From Herpetosiphonaceae bacterium (GTDB lineage: Bacteria; Chloroflexota; Chloroflexia; Chloroflexales; Kallotenuaceae), in assembly GCA_013821605.1 (NCBI GenBank), contig JACDGP010000046.1, positions 1-37,920 of the forward strand: a stretch of 37,920 bases of DNA. The letters run 5' to 3'. Below the pieces are notes generated by a model that saw nothing but the letters and a program-made list of their open reading frames with translations, ran no database searches and had not been told where the DNA came from. The first letter of the stretch is position 1. Each line of letters starts with the position of its first letter. Below, piece by piece: positions 14,328 through 26,724 of the stretch. A program made the position numbers and the translations under genes.

Positions 14328-15143
14328 CTACTCCTGCCGTAGGCGTGCGACTCCGACTATAACCAAGGCTAGGAGACGTGTGTGCTCCGCTGGAACGTTC
14401 TCATCCAGGCGCGCCGCTGCGACCACCACTTGCCACGCTGCTAAGTGCTCGCGTCCCATAGGGCGTAGCCGAAAATAGTGTTTGAGATACATGCGGTGAA
14501 ACCACTGACGAGTTGCCTCGATCATGCTGCGTCTAGGAGTGCCTGGGAGGAGTGCTGTTGTGCTGAGCAGGAGCGAAGTTCTGCCGACATCTGCCAGAGG
14601 ACAGCCATAGGCAGCATTTGCCCAATCGATGATGATCGGACCGCGCCTCGTCAACAAGATGTTATCCGGATGCAGATCGCCGTGTAAGAGCCGCTTGTCG
14701 TCGGGAAGTGCATGGAGGGTATGCAACACTACCTCCTTTATCTCCGCTGGCAGTGATCCGGCCCTACGGATACTGTCTGCTAATTGTTGGTGGCAGGAGG
14801 GGAGCTCCGGCGCGCTCTGCGCATGCAGTGCTGCTTGAAGCTCGGCAAGCAGCCGCGCGAAGCAGAAAAGCCTCCAGGGTTTCTGGGAAAGGGTTGTGAG
14901 CATAGACGGACCATCTACCCGCTCGTAGATCACTCCGTAGCGTGCATCGATCTCAACAATATCGCTGACTGCCGGGACCGGTATACCTGTTGCTACCACG
15001 ATCCTGGCGATCCGCGCTTCATATTCCACCGCTGCCGCAGAATATTCGGGGTAAAACAGTTTGAGCACCTGCCCAGTCTGCCAGGCATACAGTTCAGCTG
15101 TGCGACCCCGCGCGATCAGAACACCGAGGGATGAGGGAGCCAT
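14328..15143 (-). CDS. Aminoglycoside phosphotransferase (APH)-like small-molecule kinase
   Basis: 271 aa with the APH/choline-kinase fold. Seen: an N-lobe lysine in GQVLKLF (K28), the catalytic loop HGDLHPDN (H154, D156, N161) and the metal-binding IIDW (D173). Enzymes of this group phosphorylate antibiotics, homoserine, fructosamine or other small molecules. Nothing here fixes the substrate, so a resistance role should not be assumed. AGGAGG lies 5 nt before the ATG. It is divergent from the kinase-fusion gene across about 205 bp. Confidence 0.85.
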   Translation of the reverse strand: MAPSSLGVLIARGRTAELYAWQTGQVLKLFYPEYSAAAVEYEARIARIVVATGIPVPAVSDIVEIDARYGVIYERVDGPSMLTTLSQKPWRLFCFARLLAELQAALHAQSAPELPSCHQQLADSIRRAGSLPAEIKEVVLHTLHALPDDKRLLHGDLHPDNILLTRRGPIIIDWANAAYGCPLADVGRTSLLLSTTALLPGTPRRSMIEATRQWFHRMYLKHYFRLRPMGREHLAAWQVVVAAARLDENVPAEHTRLLALVIVGVARLRQE

Positions 15144-15263: not shown

Positions 15264-15278
15264 GTCATTTTGAATGAC
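15264..15278. promoter_or_regulatory. GTCATT-TTG-AATGAC inverted repeat, possible operator
   Basis: A 6-bp perfect inverted repeat with a 3-bp centre. It lies in the divergent gap between the APH-like gene and the P-loop fusion gene, about 70 bp before the latter's ATG. No clear -35/-10 pair was found around it. Confidence 0.3.
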
Positions 15279-15348
15279 AACCCGAGACGTGAGCGAGACT
15301 TGGCTATGCAGCCACTTAGGTGGTACGCTTGATCGCGGAGGAACGTCT

Positions 15349-16302
15349 ATGCTACACCACTTGATAATGTTTGATGGTTCACCGGGGGCGGGAAAATCGA
15401 CGCTATCATCGTTTCTCGCCCAGCAGTTGACCGCATCTGGAATTACTACCCAATGGTTCTACGAAGAGGCTGCCCCAACTGCGTTCGCCAAATTTTGGCA
15501 GGATCTACGGGATGGTCGTCCTCAAATGATTGACACGTTCCTCGGTGCCACAACGACCTTTGTTGCCACCTGCAGCCGTACGAATGCAACGTACATCACT
15601 GACTCCTTGTTGCCAGGGTATCACTTTTTCGTCGGTGGCTTCTTGCGTCCGCACATTGAAGCATTCGGCGTGGATCTATTTCGTATCATCGAACCACTCC
15701 ATCCATTAGTCATTTATCTTAGTTGCGATGTCGAGGCTGCCCTCGACCGCGCAGTAGCGCAACGCGGAACTGTGTGGCTCGAACGACTGATCTCCCGCAT
15801 AAATGCGTTCTACTACATGCCACTCTACACACATTCACCCTTTCCGTTTAGAGACAAACGTGATCTGATAGCCTATGAAGACTATGTAAACCAGTTCACA
15901 TTAGACCTCTTAGGATCCTGGTCAAAAAACACTCTGATCCTCGATACGACCCTGATGCCAGTTGAACAACTCAAAATAAAGCTCCTTGACCACTTTGAGT
16001 TGATAGAACGTGCAACCGATCCTAGACTGGCCCCTGAACTATTAGACGGCTACGCCGGGACATATGAGCCGCTTTATGAAGCACCAACGGCACGGCCTTT
16101 GACGATCAGCATCGCAGGCAACCGACTGTTTGCGGATACATATTGGCCAAATGGTACGCCACTTGTAGCCGAAAGTGACACAAAGTTTCGCTTGCAGAGC
16201 ACAAGCAATTGGATTGAATTCACTATACAGCCAAATGGGGCTCCCAGTAGGCTTACGTATTTCTTCCGTGGAGAACTCTATGGATACGAGAAGGTAGCTT
16301 AA
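15349..16302 (+). CDS. P-loop kinase fused to a lipocalin-like (DUF3471/Pab87-type) C-terminal domain
   Basis: 317 aa. Residues 1 to about 220 look like a nucleoside/thymidylate-kinase-type P-loop protein: Walker A GSPGAGKST (10-18), a possible LID region around AQRGTVWLERL, and a VIYLSCDVEAAL strand. From about 227 the sequence changes to a beta-rich domain beginning LLDGYAGTYEPL and ending ELYGYEKVA. This pattern resembles the C-terminal domain (DUF3471/Pab87-related) usually attached to beta-lactamase-fold serine hydrolases. Joining it to a kinase is unusual. The start was chosen for GGAGGA 6 nt upstream of the ATG. An in-frame ATG at 15274 lacks such a site. No substrate can be assigned. 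Confidence 0.75.
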   Translation: MLHHLIMFDGSPGAGKSTLSSFLAQQLTASGITTQWFYEEAAPTAFAKFWQDLRDGRPQMIDTFLGATTTFVATCSRTNATYITDSLLPGYHFFVGGFLRPHIEAFGVDLFRIIEPLHPLVIYLSCDVEAALDRAVAQRGTVWLERLISRINAFYYMPLYTHSPFPFRDKRDLIAYEDYVNQFTLDLLGSWSKNTLILDTTLMPVEQLKIKLLDHFELIERATDPRLAPELLDGYAGTYEPLYEAPTARPLTISIAGNRLFADTYWPNGTPLVAESDTKFRLQSTSNWIEFTIQPNGAPSRLTYFFRGELYGYEKVA

Positions 16303-16448
16303 GAAATCGAGTGAACAACCAGAGCAGAAAAGGGTTAGGTAAGGAGACACCTGCTCGTAAAGACATGCCAGAATAGCGATTATTTGCGGGGCATTGCTTC
16401 TTGTGCTACCCTGCGTGGGCCAGTTTGGGCTTAGCGGTCGAGACCACG

Positions 16449-17981
16449 ATGCAGCAACCCTCGGCACTCGAAGTCCGTAACGTCACGAAGCAGTTTCCCG
16501 GCGTGGTGGCGAATGATCATATTTCATTCACGCTGTTGCCCGGCGAGATTCATGCCTTCTTGGGTGAGAACGGCGCGGGTAAGTCCACGTTAATGAATAT
16601 CTTGTATGGTTTGATCGCGCCCGACGAGGGCGCGATTTTCATTAACGGCCGGCAAGTCACCATTCATAATCCTGCCGATGCGATCCGGCAGGGATTGGGC
16701 ATGGTCCACCAGGAATATGCGCTGGTCGATACTCTAACGGCTGCTGAAAATATTATGCTTGGCACCGAGATCGCGCGCAATGGTGTGATCGCGGAGCGCG
16801 AGGCCAACCGGCGCATGGCCGAACTGAGCCGGAGTTACGGCTTAATTGTGCCGGTCGATGTGCTGGTCCAGGATCTGCCGGTCGGCGTTCAGCAGCGCGT
16901 CGAGATTTTGAAGGCGCTGTACCACAACGCAAAGATTTTGATCCTGGATGAGCCGACCGCCGTCCTCACGCCGCAAGAAGCCGAAGATTTGTTTCGGGTT
17001 ATGCGTGAATTGGCAGGGCAGGGGCGCTCGATTATCTTTATCTCCCACAAGCTGAAAGAAGTGTTGAGCATCGCCGACCGCATCACGGTCTTGCGGCGTG
17101 GTGCTGTTGTCGGCACGGTGCTGCCCGCAGCTGCGTCAGAGCGCTCTTTGGCCACGATGATGGTTGGGCGCTCGGTAGAGCTTGAGGTTACCAAAACGCC
17201 GGCCAAGCCAGGATCGGTGGTGTTAGAGGTGCGCGATCTGGTGGTTGAGGATGATCGTGGCCAAGTGATCGTTGATCATCTCGACCTCGACGTATGCGCC
17301 GGCGAAGTTTTGGGCATTGCCGGCGTGCAGGGTAACGGTCAGACCGAACTGGTCGAAGCGATCAACGGACTACGTCCGATTGAGAGCGGCACGATCCGCT
17401 TGCAAGGGCAACCACTGCAGGCCGATCCACGCGCGATTACCGAAGGTGGTGTCGCGTATATTCCGGATGATCGCAAAGGAACGGGCCTGGTACTCGGCTA
17501 TCCGATCGCAGACAACCTGGTCTTGTCAAACTATTATGTGCCGCCCTTTGCGCATGGTATTGTGTTGGACGAAGGACAGATTACGAGCCATGCCGAGCAA
17601 CTGGTCAAGCAGTTCGATATCCGCACGCCCTCGATCTGGACCCATGCGGGCTCGCTATCCGGGGGCAACCAACAGAAAGTGATCGTCGCGCGTGAGTTCT
17701 CGCGCCCGATCAAACTGCTGGTTGCCGCGCAGCCGACACGTGGCATTGACGTCGGTTCCATTGAATTTATCCATCGCTCGATCATTGCACAGCGTGATCA
17801 AGGTGTCGCTGTGCTCCTGGTGTCCGCCGAGCTTGATGAGATTTTGTCGCTGGCCGATCGCATCGCCGTGATGTTTCATGGACGCATCGTTGCTACGCTA
17901 CCCGCCGCACAAGCGAATCGGGAACAGATCGGGTTGTTGATGGCCGGCGTAGCTCACGCCGACGTGGAGAATGGACATTGA
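16449..17981 (+). CDS. Nucleoside/simple-sugar ABC importer ATPase with two NBDs (NupA/YufO-like)
   Basis: 510 aa with two ATP-binding domains in tandem. The first has canonical Walker A GENGAGKST (about 41-49), Walker B LLILDEPTAVL and VGVQQRVEILKALY in the signature position. The second has the degenerate GVQGNGQTE typical of this class, signature LSGGNQQK and a Walker B reading LLVAAQPTRGID, where the catalytic Glu is replaced by Gln. Together with the two following permeases this is the importer class for nucleosides or purines that works with BMP-type lipoproteins. No binding-protein gene is in the cluster. The start follows homology. Only a weak GAG lies upstream. Confidence 0.92.
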   Translation: MQQPSALEVRNVTKQFPGVVANDHISFTLLPGEIHAFLGENGAGKSTLMNILYGLIAPDEGAIFINGRQVTIHNPADAIRQGLGMVHQEYALVDTLTAAENIMLGTEIARNGVIAEREANRRMAELSRSYGLIVPVDVLVQDLPVGVQQRVEILKALYHNAKILILDEPTAVLTPQEAEDLFRVMRELAGQGRSIIFISHKLKEVLSIADRITVLRRGAVVGTVLPAAASERSLATMMVGRSVELEVTKTPAKPGSVVLEVRDLVVEDDRGQVIVDHLDLDVCAGEVLGIAGVQGNGQTELVEAINGLRPIESGTIRLQGQPLQADPRAITEGGVAYIPDDRKGTGLVLGYPIADNLVLSNYYVPPFAHGIVLDEGQITSHAEQLVKQFDIRTPSIWTHAGSLSGGNQQKVIVAREFSRPIKLLVAAQPTRGIDVGSIEFIHRSIIAQRDQGVAVLLVSAELDEILSLADRIAVMFHGRIVATLPAAQANREQIGLLMAGVAHADVENGH

Positions 17982-17999
17982 GTATGCTGCGAGGAATGT

Positions 18000-19217
18000 A
18001 TGGCGGTTGAGATTGGCGTGCCGGTGCGGCCACACCGGCGGAATTGGCTGCTACCCCTGCTTCAAGAAGCCGTCGTGCCCTTGCTGGCAATTCTCACCGC
18101 GCTGATCATCGGCGCGGTTATCATCTGGTTTTCTGCACATAGCGCCCATGACACTCGGCTTCAGACAGTGGGCAAGGCATATCATGGGTTGTTCATGGGA
18201 GCCTTTGGCGGCTGGAACCGGATCTCGGATACGCTGGTCGAAGCGACGCCTTATATTTTCGCCGGGCTGGCTGTAGCGTTGGGCTTTAAGTGCGGCTTGT
18301 TTAACATCGGCGCTGAGGGGCAATTATACTTGGGCTCGATTACCTCGGCGGCAGTCGGCTTTGGCGTCCACGGGCTGCCAACGATCATCCATCTGCCGCT
18401 CGCAATTCTCGCCGGGGTCATCGCCGGTGGGCTGTGGGGTGCGATCCCCGGCTATTTACGCGCCCGCACCGGAGCGCACGAAGTCATCAACACCATTATG
18501 TTGAACTATATCGCGGCGCAACTGCTCGATTATCTGATCCTGAAGCCACTGCGTGACACGCATGCTAGCTCACAGCGCACACCGTTTATCTTAGGTTCAG
18601 CAGCACTGCCACGTTTGATCGGGCCGCGAACTAACCCAAGCTTAAGTGGCGGCAACACGTATACACCGTTGTTCGTTACCAAGAACCCGACCTTTGATCT
18701 GCGGATCCACGTAGGCTTTCTGCTGGCTTTACTTGCTGTTTGGGGCGTGTGGTGGTTTTTACGCCGGACGACGACCGGCTTTGAGATTCGCACCGTTGGA
18801 TCGAATCCCAAGGCCGCACGCTATGCCGGCATGAGCGTAACACGGAGCTTTGTGCTCACCATGTTCTTGTCGGGCGCACTGGCGGGGATGGCGGGCGTCA
18901 CCCAAGTGCTCGGTGTTGAATACAATGTCAAGTCATTATTTTCATCCGGCTATGGCTTCGACAGTATTGCGGTGGCACTCCTCGCCAAAAGCAACCCGAT
19001 CGCGATTATTCCCGCCGCAATCTTTTGGGGGGCCTTGAATAATGGCAAAGGACTGATGCAGTCCGAAACCGGGGCGGCAATTTCGAGCGACCTGATTCGC
19101 ATTATTCAGGCACTAGTGATTATGTTTGTGGCCGCCGATCAGATCGTGCGCTGGATCTACCGGCTGCGCCAACGTGGTGGTGGCACCGCGATCTTTTCAC
19201 GTGGATGGGGGCAGTAG
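18000..19217 (+). CDS. ABC importer permease 1 (NupB/YufP-like)
   Basis: 405 aa inner-membrane subunit of the BPD_transp_2/LivHM-like family. Seen: a long hydrophobic N-terminal segment (about 18-45), family motifs FKCGLFNIGAEGQL and GAHEVINTIMLNYIA, and a C-terminal YGFDSIAVALLAKSNP. About 9-10 membrane segments can be read. GAGGAA lies 3 nt before the ATG. It begins 18 bp after the ATPase stop and its stop directly abuts the next ATG, so the three genes form one operon. Confidence 0.92.
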   Translation: MAVEIGVPVRPHRRNWLLPLLQEAVVPLLAILTALIIGAVIIWFSAHSAHDTRLQTVGKAYHGLFMGAFGGWNRISDTLVEATPYIFAGLAVALGFKCGLFNIGAEGQLYLGSITSAAVGFGVHGLPTIIHLPLAILAGVIAGGLWGAIPGYLRARTGAHEVINTIMLNYIAAQLLDYLILKPLRDTHASSQRTPFILGSAALPRLIGPRTNPSLSGGNTYTPLFVTKNPTFDLRIHVGFLLALLAVWGVWWFLRRTTTGFEIRTVGSNPKAARYAGMSVTRSFVLTMFLSGALAGMAGVTQVLGVEYNVKSLFSSGYGFDSIAVALLAKSNPIAIIPAAIFWGALNNGKGLMQSETGAAISSDLIRIIQALVIMFVAADQIVRWIYRLRQRGGGTAIFSRGWGQ

Positions 19218-20450
19218 ATGTACTGGACACGCGCGCGGATCATTGGGCTGCTCGGCGTCGTCATCACCTTGCTCCTTGCGCTTGCAGTCGCGCGGAACGT
19301 TGGGATAACGCGCATTTCGACGTTGAACATCTCACAACCGAATACGCATCCCGGCACACCACCACTGATCGCCTTCCATCTACCGACGGTGGTGACGGTG
19401 GTCGTATTGCAAGCGATGCTCGGCTTGACCGGCATCTGGTTGTTCGTGCGCCAGCCAGCGCGTTTGGTGGCACCGTATGTGAGCACCTTGATCGGCGCAA
19501 CCTTGCTGACTATTTTGTTATGGGCCATCGCGGGCGACGCCACCGATCTGGTCGATATCTTCGCCCGCGTTGTGCGGTTGGCGACGCCGATCACCTTGGG
19601 GGCCTTGGCCGGCATCTTATGTGAACGCTCGGGGGTTGTGAATATCGGCATCGAAGGCATGATGCTTTTCGGAGCCTGTTTTGCTTATATCGCTGCGATA
19701 ACGACCGGTAACAGTTGGCTGGCCGTCGCCACCGGCATGCTGGTCGGTGCCGTGATTGCGGCGCTTCACGCCGTGCTCTCGATTCGCTTTCGCATTGACC
19801 AGATTATTAGCGGCACCGTGATCAATATTCTGGCAATCGGCACAACCGGCTTTTTACGCGGCAGTTTTATTACCAGCTATCCCAATCCCAAAGGCGGTCA
19901 ACTACCCAACGTGCCCATTCCGCTGTTGTCCAATATTCCGGTGCTCGGCCCGCTCCTCTTCAACCACCAGCCCATCACCTATATTACCCTGATCACCGTT
20001 GGGGTCGTGCATCTGCTCCTCTTCCGGACGATCTGGGGCCTGCGCACGCGGGCGATTGGTGAGGCACCCAAAGCGGCCGATACGGTCGGGATTAACGTCA
20101 ACCAGATGCGCGCAGCGAACGTGATTGTGTCGGGCCTGCTCGCCGGGCTAGGCGGCGCGTGGTTTTCGCTCGAAGCGACCTTTCGCTTCGATGATGTAAT
20201 GACCAATGGGCGTGGGTTTATTGCGCTGGCGGCGATGATCTTCGGCAAGTGGACACCACTGGGGGCGTTTGGTGGCGCCTTACTTTTTTCTTCCGCCGAT
20301 GCCCTCCAGATTCGTATTCAGGGCTTTAACTTCGCGCTACCGCCGCAATTTTTGCAGATGCTGCCGTATCTGGTTACGATGATCGTGCTGGCGGGGGTGA
20401 TCGGGCGAGCTCGTCCACCGGCCGCCGTTGGCAAGCCGTATGAAAAATAA
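19218..20450 (+). CDS. ABC importer permease 2 (NupC/YufQ-like)
   Basis: 410 aa polytopic partner of permease 1. Seen: the family motif ERSGVVNIGIEGMMLFGA, the RFRIDQIISGTVINILAIG region and a C-terminal GRGFIALAAMIFGKW. The ATG immediately follows the TAG of permease 1, so translation is probably coupled. It is longer than many homologues because of an N-terminal part with extra hydrophobic segments (about 8-28 and 58-78) before the conserved core. The gene ends 62 bp from the convergent dehydrogenase, with a hairpin between them. Confidence 0.92.
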   Translation: MYWTRARIIGLLGVVITLLLALAVARNVGITRISTLNISQPNTHPGTPPLIAFHLPTVVTVVVLQAMLGLTGIWLFVRQPARLVAPYVSTLIGATLLTILLWAIAGDATDLVDIFARVVRLATPITLGALAGILCERSGVVNIGIEGMMLFGACFAYIAAITTGNSWLAVATGMLVGAVIAALHAVLSIRFRIDQIISGTVINILAIGTTGFLRGSFITSYPNPKGGQLPNVPIPLLSNIPVLGPLLFNHQPITYITLITVGVVHLLLFRTIWGLRTRAIGEAPKAADTVGINVNQMRAANVIVSGLLAGLGGAWFSLEATFRFDDVMTNGRGFIALAAMIFGKWTPLGAFGGALLFSSADALQIRIQGFNFALPPQFLQMLPYLVTMIVLAGVIGRARPPAAVGKPYEK

Positions 20451-22316: not shown

Positions 22317-24335
22317 CTATGCCCGATTTCGGAATTGCAGGATCCGTTGATCTCCGGGCGCAATCGCTAGAGATCTCGTCCGCACCTGTATTGCTGACCG
22401 CAGATCCATGAAGCCGTCGTGACTGTCTCCGCTTTGGAGACGGAGCACATTACACCTCATTAGCGCGCTGCCTTTGTTGTTGTGGGCATCCACATCATCG
22501 GGGACACGGGAGAGGGCAGCATCATAAGCCTTGATAGCAGCCGTATAGCTGGCAAGAGCGTCAGCATGCTGCGCTAAACGTGCAAAATACTGGCCCTCTG
22601 AGTTTGATGCATATCCTCTGGAAAAATCATTATTGATCTGCAGTTCTTGCTGCACTTCCAGCAGCAAGCCACACAGTCCATACTGGCTCAACTCGAGTGC
22701 TTTGTCGAATACCGCTACCCATTCGTTGACACCGCGTTGCCAGTCGAGGCGGTTGATATGGTAGACGACCTCCGCAATCGCGTCTTGATTCCCTGCAGCA
22801 ACCTGTTGCCGGTAATAATCCTCCAAGGCTACGTGTGAATCGTGCAGGACCTCTTGGGCATCTTCGCGTTCCGCTAACAGCCGCCGAAGCAGCGCATGGA
22901 CGCGGAACCACTGCTCTCCGCGTTCACGGGCGGCATGCCACATAAATGAAAATCCGGTCAACACCTCAAATGCGGGCCGGGTCGCAGACGCTAGCCTTGG
23001 ATTCTGCTGAAGTGCACGATACGTTTCTTCGCTAAAGGCGCGGCATGCACTCAGGGCGATGACGGCCCGTTTCACCTCTACATCCACGTACCGTAGGAGC
23101 CGGTCGATCAAGATGCGACCCTTGTCCTCGTGGTGTTCTTCAGCTTGAAAATCTTCGGGACGGGGCTGCTTGCCATCGCGCTGGGCCGCCCGTATGACAT
23201 CGACACACAAGCCTAGGTACTGTGGATGAATTTGGTCCCCCGACGCGGGCATATTCGCGCAGGCATTCTTGCATCTCAACCGTACCAACCTTGGCACTTG
23301 CGAGGTAGCGTAGGGCGTATGCGTCAGTAAGATGCTCAACCGGCACTAGTTCGACATATTCCTTGGGAATTTTCGCAGGATATGCCACTGACCAACGCGG
23401 GGGCTCGCGTCCTGCCACGATGACCACGATGCCGTACTTCGGCTCCAGCGACGCGAGCAGACAGCGCAACCATTCGTCGCGTTGGTAAATTCTGTCGCCG
23501 GCCAGTTCTCGTGTTGCCCGGTCGCCCCATAACGATTCATGCGTATCGAAAAACAAGACGACGCGGGGCGGTGCTCCTTCGTCGCGCATGGCAGCATTCA
23601 AATCCTCGGCAAACAGTTCCGGTAATTTAGCCACCAGTTCGCGCTCCGGGTCCAGCCGCATGATCTCCGCCACTCGCTCCTTATTCAACCCGCGTTTCTG
23701 TAGCCAGATCGTCCACTTCTCATTAACGGGCCACCCAAGGTATTTATTGCCCTCGACCAGCACCGCCTTGATGACCGCTCCAACGGCTGTCGTGTGCCCT
23801 AGGCTCAGCCCCAAATCGACTACCGCCGCTACCAAATCCATCTCTTCCGCCGGCAGCAGTGCCTTTAGCTTCTCGCTGTTCAGCCCCCCAGTATGCTGGT
23901 AATACAATAAGCACGCGAAATCGAACAACGGAACCCGTAAACCATGCCCCGCTAGTCCGCGCCGCAACTGTAACAGCCCTGGCAGCGCCTCCTGGTGACT
24001 CTCGCCCCCTCCCGGCAACGGTGCAAAATCAAGCAGCGCTGATGGTATAGGTACTGCTCCCTCCCCTTCTTCAAAAAACGTGCAAATGCCTCCTCGTCGG
24101 ATGCCTTGATCTCCGTCCACTCGCGCGCCGGGAAACATTTGCAATACTGGGTTCGCAAAAATTCGAGCAGGAGCGATTTACCGTTTCCGCCATCACCATG
24201 AAAAAACAGAACACGGTTTTGTGGCTCGCCATGCAGGTACCTAGCTAGCACTCGTCGTGCGTCGAAGCGATCAACAAATAATTCCAGGGCTGTCGGGCCC
24301 TCGGTAACGCTCTTCGTTTCATCGCGGATCGGCAT
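22317..24335 (-). pseudogene. STAND-like NTPase with C-terminal TPR-like region, broken by two compensating frameshifts
   Basis: Read through, this would be about 672 aa. The N-terminal part carries Walker A GDGGNGKS (in RVLFFHGDGGNGKSLLL), and the middle a Walker B-like VVLFFDTHESLWG. The C-terminal third is helical and TPR-like (ALASYTAAIKAYDAALSRVPDDVDAHNNKGSALM). The frame changes within a G4 run (24063-24066 on the plus strand as C4; one G short) and changes back at a G5 run (23237-23241; one G too many), so the two ends share one frame and about 825 bp between do not. Good local coding sense in all three pieces argues for recent mutation, homopolymer sequencing error or phase variation. 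GGAG lies 7 nt before the ATG. STAND NTPases often act in signalling or phage defence. No effector domain is recognisable. Confidence 0.7.
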
Positions 24336-25968: not shown

Positions 25969-26124
25969 CATCGCACCTCGTCGTCATCCCCACCTCGGAT
26001 ACGAGGCAGTATACTATCGAATTGAACGGGATTATCGCGGCATCAAAGGGCGCTATTACGCGACGCGTGCCTACCTTCTATATCTTGTAGAAGTGTGCGA
26101 GCGCAATTCGAGGGAGTGAACGAT

Positions 26125-26724
26125 ATGCAGCGAGGCTCGCCGATTGGCAAGATTGTTGTACTTAATGGAGCGTCAAGTGCAGGGAAGACTAGTACGGCGC
26201 GTGCATTGCTCGATCTGATGGGAGCGCCAGCTGTCCACACGGGGCTTGATCATATCTTGGATCGGGTACAACCCTTTGGAGCTGAACCCCATACAGCGCT
26301 TGGTCGGTTGCGGCGCAGTGCGCAGATCGTGTGGTTTCAGCGAACCGACGGACGATTACGATTGTTCAAACAGTTGCATCGTGAAGTCGTGGCGCTTGCT
26401 CAGGCGGGTCGTGATGTCATCGTTGATACGGCTTTGATGGATCCGCGTGCACTGCGAGATGCGGCCGTGTGTTTTGGGCCCGTTCATGGCCTGTTCGTTG
26501 GGATGAAACCACCGCTCCAGGTGTCGGAGCGGTGGGAAGCGATGCGTGGTGACCGAGAGCGTGGGCATGCTCGCAAACACTATGATCTGGTACATGCCCA
26601 CGGCACTTATGATCTTGTCCTTGATCCTTCGGTATTAACACCGCAAGAATGTGCACGTGCTGTTCTGCAGCGGCTTGCGGATGGTCCACCTACTGCATTT
26701 CGTCAACTGCTCACGCAGATGTGA
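26125..26724 (+). CDS. Chloramphenicol phosphotransferase (CPT)-like P-loop kinase
   Basis: 199 aa, similar in size to CPT (about 180). Seen: the N-terminal GKIVVLNGASSAGKTSTA with Walker A GASSAGKT, HTGLDHILDRVQP after the first helix, VIVDTALMD, and VSERWEAMRGDRERGHARKH, a lid segment typical of this family. CPT phosphorylates chloramphenicol. Most homologues have unknown substrates, so antibiotic resistance is not implied. GAGGGAG lies 8 nt before the ATG. A small inverted repeat CTTCTA-N7-TAGAAG (26075-26093) lies just upstream. The gene ends 2 bp from the convergent CAP-protein stop. Confidence 0.85.
   Translation: MQRGSPIGKIVVLNGASSAGKTSTARALLDLMGAPAVHTGLDHILDRVQPFGAEPHTALGRLRRSAQIVWFQRTDGRLRLFKQLHREVVALAQAGRDVIVDTALMDPRALRDAAVCFGPVHGLFVGMKPPLQVSERWEAMRGDRERGHARKHYDLVHAHGTYDLVLDPSVLTPQECARAVLQRLADGPPTAFRQLLTQM

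Follow-up and report, generated by a model that had tools for sequence, protein, structure and literature searches.

The window, which is the whole stretch of DNA analysed, comprises 37,920 nucleotides of a contig from a Herpetosiphonaceae bacterium of the Chloroflexota. An open reading frame at 15349-16302 on the forward strand encodes 317 amino acids plus stop, and its product almost certainly consists of a P-loop kinase joined to a barrel of the type carried by S12 hydrolases. The gene has the following features:

15337 to 15343, forward strand: Shine-Dalgarno-like GGAGGAA, visible in the sequence itself and separated by 5 bases from the ATG at 15349
15349 to 16302, forward strand: kinase/barrel fusion gene, with full-length homologues found
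15349 to 15993, forward strand: N-terminal P-loop kinase, residues 1-215, with a predicted thymidylate-kinase fold
15376 to 15402, forward strand: P-loop GSPGAGKST, residues 10-18, with Gly15 and Lys16 in 15/15 aligned sequences
15463 to 15465, forward strand: Glu39, in 15/15 sequences
15601 to 15606, forward strand: Asp85-Ser86, at the position of the thymidylate-kinase DR motif
15763 to 15768, forward strand: Arg139-Gly140, a probable LID motif by sequence conservation (Arg 14/15, Gly 15/15)
15994 to 16029, forward strand: linker, about residues 216-227, where the model has no helix or strand (216-228) and a mean pLDDT of 68 (221-230)
16030 to 16299, forward strand: C-terminal lipocalin-like barrel, residues 228-317, related to DUF3471, with a helix (229-235) and eight strands (237-315) placed by profiles and models

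An alternative in-frame start at 15274 would give a protein of 342 amino acids. The start at 15349 is preferred because of the GGAGGAA 5 bases upstream and its agreement with the starts of homologues.

Several other genes surround the fusion gene in the window. About 200 bases away, and divergent from it, an APH-type kinase is encoded at 14328-15143 on the reverse strand (PF01636, E 2.6e-22; TIGR02172, 91.4 bits vs 228.2). About 100 bases downstream and on the same strand, 16401-20450 encodes an ABC transporter with a double ATPase and two BPD_transp_2 permeases, presumably of the nucleoside-importer type. At 22317-24144 on the reverse strand there are two overlapping frames of more than 330 amino acids, with no Pfam match at 1e-6. 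A second small-molecule kinase, a chloramphenicol phosphotransferase-like P-loop protein (PF07931, E 3.4e-35), lies 10 kb downstream at 26095-26721 on the forward strand.

The protein is 19-28% identical overall to its aligned relatives, and its kinase domain shares 30% identity at most with the closest of them (L016). With the other fused members, only 16-30% of the residues of the C-terminal domain are shared. Residue counts refer to 15 of the 16 aligned rows, the split copy L025 being omitted; among these 15, the window protein is the only one without Trp at residue 68, and it also lacks the HPL motif found in most relatives.

A Walker A motif, GxxGxGK[ST], stands at the beginning of the N-terminal domain, whose fold is of the nucleotide-kinase type. 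An AlphaFold2 model of the whole protein, built from six sequences, has a pLDDT of 81.4 and a pTM of 0.77. Thymidylate kinases are the best rows when this model is searched with Foldseek, and VIA-align superposes it on 2pbr_A with Z 17.2 (rmsd 3.0, 181 residues aligned), the match stopping at residue 221. Sequence searches are less specific. The whole protein has only weak Pfam matches, to P-loop families and DUF3471; Thymidylate_kin (PF02223) reaches 20 bits where 27 are required, and a kinase profile run against PDB sequences finds matches at the P-loop level only. On the model, the domain is an intact-looking P-loop kinase of the thymidylate-kinase fold, and its sequence makes it likely that the protein is an active small-molecule kinase.

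Thymidylate kinases carry a DR motif after strand 3. The genome's own tmk, which lies on another contig and scores 141.4 bits, above the family cut-off, has this motif as DRF, and the Glu of its REPGG motif aligns with Glu39 of the window protein. A role for Glu39 in catalysis or in acceptor binding is proposed from this conservation. The likeness of the fusion protein to the thymidylate kinases (TIGR00041 and PF02223) thus comprises the fold, the P-loop and this glutamate. In contrast, the protein scores under both cut-offs (21.4 bits with TIGR00041, where the curated cut-off is 83.25), and residue 85 is Asp or Glu in 15/15 aligned sequences, with the DR arginine in 0/15. The missing arginine and the separate tmk rule out a housekeeping thymidylate kinase, and for the same reasons the phosphate acceptor is probably a compound other than dTMP.

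Of the NCBIfam families, PRK06761/NF005250 (E 7.6e-12), which consists of hypothetical proteins, fits the kinase part best. The window protein reaches 44.8 bits against a curated cut-off of 270, which was also reached by 0/8 further relatives scanned. A relative without a barrel, found on viral contigs, scores 227 bits, whereas in every fused member scanned the best-matching stretch stops ahead of the barrel.

In a Pfam search of the C-terminal part by itself, PF11954 (DUF3471; E 6.7e-5, 23.7 bits) is the sole match. Since the isolated domain, at 23.5-23.7 bits, stays below the gathering cut-off of 29.3 bits, it is on profile evidence a divergent relative of DUF3471 and not a Pfam member by that cut-off. 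At E <= 0.1, five of ten fused members hit this family too, with no hits to any other in Pfam. When the C-terminal domains of 10 kinases were compared with 28 hydrolase DUF3471 domains by hhalign, the probability was 97.9% (E 3.3e-13), a value with a mild circularity in it, as the cutting motif (aromatic-x-G-x-Y) is common to both sets; with the uncut kinase alignment, A2, the probability remained at 97.2%. The controls gave 1.8 for the best of 30 column shuffles, 1.1 for the reversed alignment and 0.1 for the kinase N-terminal domain against the hydrolase domains. The 28 domains came from 20 of 23 distinct open reading frames; L047 and L054, which are without the cutting motif, and L055, left out by choice, were not cut.

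The relationship can also be recovered in the other direction. A profile of the kinase C-terminal domains alone finds the C-terminus of a 491-amino-acid hydrolase in the window's own genome (E 1.2e-8) and a hydrolase C-terminus in G070 (E 2.7e-10). Over 400 Chloroflexota genomes it matched seven, the matches being seven fused-kinase places and two hydrolases; against PDB sequences it gave no credible match (best E 0.35). The hhalign controls and this reciprocal search exclude a chance resemblance to DUF3471. By these comparisons of profiles, the C-terminal domain is homologous to the DUF3471 domains of Chloroflexota S12 hydrolases.

In those hydrolases, DUF3471 follows a beta-lactamase-type (S12) domain. 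A search of 201 Chloroflexota genomes gave 25 matches in 23 distinct frames, two being a second match in the same frame, and an S12 domain is present in 23/23; it was assigned in 10 by Pfam (for L043 by a partial match) and in the other 13 by a local profile, for which kinases served as negative controls. The window protein has no PF00144 match, and so departs from the usual context. Eight of the hydrolases (L043, L045, L046, L048, L049, L050, L051 and L058) have two tandem barrel-type motifs, and the kinase barrels lie nearer, with weak support, to the second, short-hairpin motif than to the first.

Modelled alone, the C-terminal domain is predicted to form one helix and eight strands (pLDDT 89.1). 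VIA-align puts eight PDB rows from seven proteins first, each of them a barrel at the C-terminus of a penicillin-binding/beta-lactamase-type hydrolase: IS11 (7spn, Z 11.4), D-aminopeptidase (1ei5, 10.9), Ulm16 (8fek, 10.6), SurE (6ksv, 9.6; 6ksu, 9.3), Rv0907 (4whi, 9.2), Pab87 (2qmi, 8.8) and Lip3 (9sn1, 8.1), with the next other barrel at 7.5; these values are moderate in absolute terms, and the claim is borne by the ranking and the sequence evidence. We take Lip3 to be of the penicillin-binding type, the title of its entry being silent on type. In Foldseek alone, no match of the domain counted at <=0.001 (best row shown 1.0e-03, 7spn_B). The first three rows were S12-type enzymes with lipocalins close behind, and for this reason the case rests on the VIA-align ranking and the sequence profiles. 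These hydrolases resemble the window protein in having a helix and an eight-stranded barrel C-terminal to the catalytic domain, in addition to the DUF3471 profile homology, but their partner domain is of the penicillin-binding/beta-lactamase fold and not a P-loop kinase. Likewise, the CubicO peptidase Pab87 shares the helix and barrel, whereas neither the window protein nor the control kinases have an S12 domain match.

It was also considered whether the C-terminus is a piece of the kinase fold. This was rejected because the kinase matches stop at 221 and because six aligned single-domain relatives from Chloroflexota are only 230-243 amino acids long. The first-pass annotation had called a P-loop kinase from GSPGAGKST, followed by a DUF3471/Pab87-type lipocalin-like domain, and had regarded the pairing as unusual. 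The kinase call is borne out by the structural match and the invariant Lys16, and the second call by the profile search, the hhalign controls and the barrel ranking. The separate search that it proposed for the C-terminal part did find DUF3471, though under the cut-off, and the predicted structure sets this part outside the kinase fold. The constant presence of S12 domains beside DUF3471 in the surveyed genomes agrees with its view of the pairing.

What the barrel does can be approached by analogy. The closest characterised domains cover the catalytic cleft like a lid (PMC9972953, PMC11735501); among peptide cyclases, a loop of the PenA barrel covers the cleft in a model, and a tilt of the Ulm16 barrel narrows it (PMC11735501). 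By analogy with the esterase IS11, we give an even chance to the barrel being an acceptor-side lid. In this reading, an acceptor sitting close to Glu39 and Asp85 would receive the ATP gamma-phosphate from the N-terminal domain, and the barrel, folded back within its own chain or across a dimer, would cap the open side where the acceptor binds and narrow the range of what is phosphorylated.

A less probable reading, to which perhaps a quarter of our belief goes, is that the barrel serves chiefly for oligomerisation, with no direct role in substrate choice. Pab87, whose barrel ranks among the eight top rows, is an octamer; its C-terminal domains interlock in a ring at the centre and are crucial for octamerisation (PMC2651629). 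However, for IS11, the closest match, PMC9972953 reports no obvious contacts between lipocalin domains in the dimer, and the kinases also exist as single-domain proteins. It is doubtful that a ligand sits inside the barrel, be it the acceptor, as the first-pass annotation had suggested, or a small molecule with an allosteric effect. The models do have a lipocalin-like topology; the barrel has about 90 residues, though, against the 160-180 of lipocalins given in PMC9972953, and Pab87 has a small recess instead of a tunnel (PMC2651629).

The fusion is found well beyond the window. Ten distinct fused sequences occur in Chloroflexota alongside single-domain versions, so that the survey of domain architectures suggested at the outset shows a recurring form. 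A profile search with alignment A1 matched 12/400 Chloroflexota genomes at E 1e-5. The hydrolases in G070 and G000:C55 and another P-loop protein in G235 are not counted as relatives, and with G070 and G235 removed the kinase is present in 10/400 genomes. Six of these have the barrel-bearing kinase (G000, G210, G267, G366, G377 and G382), four have only the kinase without a barrel (G189, G242, G331 and G357), and G377 has both forms. A set of 60 nearer relatives yielded two further fused genes (G005, G027), and a Chloroflexia MAG one more (L016). The fused genes of Ktedonosporobacter rubrisoli, Ktedonobacter sp. SOSP1-85 and Ktedonospora formicarum have coordinates that match those in G377, G382 and G366 already counted. 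As judged from these sequences, the kinase-barrel pairing is conserved and not a one-off. The open-licence literature gave nothing on the pairing, on DUF3471 or on PRK06761, and print outside that scope is possible; within the literature searched, the pairing is a new, uncharacterised variant of known domains.

Single-domain relatives are also carried by Streptomyces plasmids and by viral contigs. Those on IMG/VR viral contigs (L040 and L041) lie amid phage-like genes, as judged by eye. The search of phages found no match, and viral contigs searched with the window protein itself gave none either. The Streptomyces single-domain relative L011 adjoins an IS701-family transposase gene. On contig 36 of G267 (L025 and L033), the fused kinase gene is split by about 1.6 kb with a DDE_5 transposase frame.

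Such a split copy, together with a patchy distribution in which only 6/400 Chloroflexota genomes have the fused form, is what might be expected of a relic, meaning a P-loop protein that is in decay or not catalytic and whose barrel is a leftover of its history. We consider this improbable. The frame in the window is open, with the P-loop and Glu39 intact, and the fused form persists despite the low identities to the window protein, both in the C-terminal domain and overall.

The neighbourhoods of the relatives vary. The 20 flanking open reading frames scanned in seven loci (the loci hold more) have no shared family next to the kinase; some relatives have integrase or transposase genes nearby. 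A link with the divergent APH-like gene, suggested earlier, found no support, since 0/20 of these frames matched APH at E 1e-6. The patchy distribution and the lack of conserved neighbours suggest an accessory enzyme for salvage or detoxification. The type of the downstream ABC transporter might hint at a nucleoside-like acceptor.

The history of the fusion was examined in trees. The kinase trees, both without the split L025, differ in the rows included. With 18 rows, three changes are needed, and the AU test does not reject a single fused clade (0.074). With 16 rows, that is, without the longest rows L008 and L040, two changes are needed and one fused clade is rejected (AU 0.0244). The window kinase groups with two Streptomyces single-domain kinases in both (96/94 and 93/98, respectively). 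The tree of C-terminal domains (38 rows), in which the window row is a long branch, does not discriminate between single and repeated fusion. These sequence relationships hint at repeated fusion, or loss. It is tempting to go further and propose that the S12 lipocalin-like domain is a portable lid joined to thymidylate-kinase-fold enzymes more than once, here to a kinase lineage whose other members, in Streptomyces, are single-domain, and separately from the fusions in Ktedonobacteria. The acceptor would then possibly be a peptide-like or D-amino-acid compound, which is proposed because the S12 lid meets peptide substrates. As a whole, this proposal is a long shot.

In the window protein, a barrel known as the tail of hydrolases is attached to a catalytic domain of quite different chemistry. 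This speaks for the barrel as a lid or specificity module that can be transferred, rather than as a part of the S12 mechanism. The existence of single-domain relatives indicates that the kinase fold does not need the barrel, and the single-domain and fused forms of this recurrent kinase family are a natural experiment on the effect of the lid. Since the pairing recurs in other Chloroflexota, the barrel may be a lid that is movable between unrelated enzymes.
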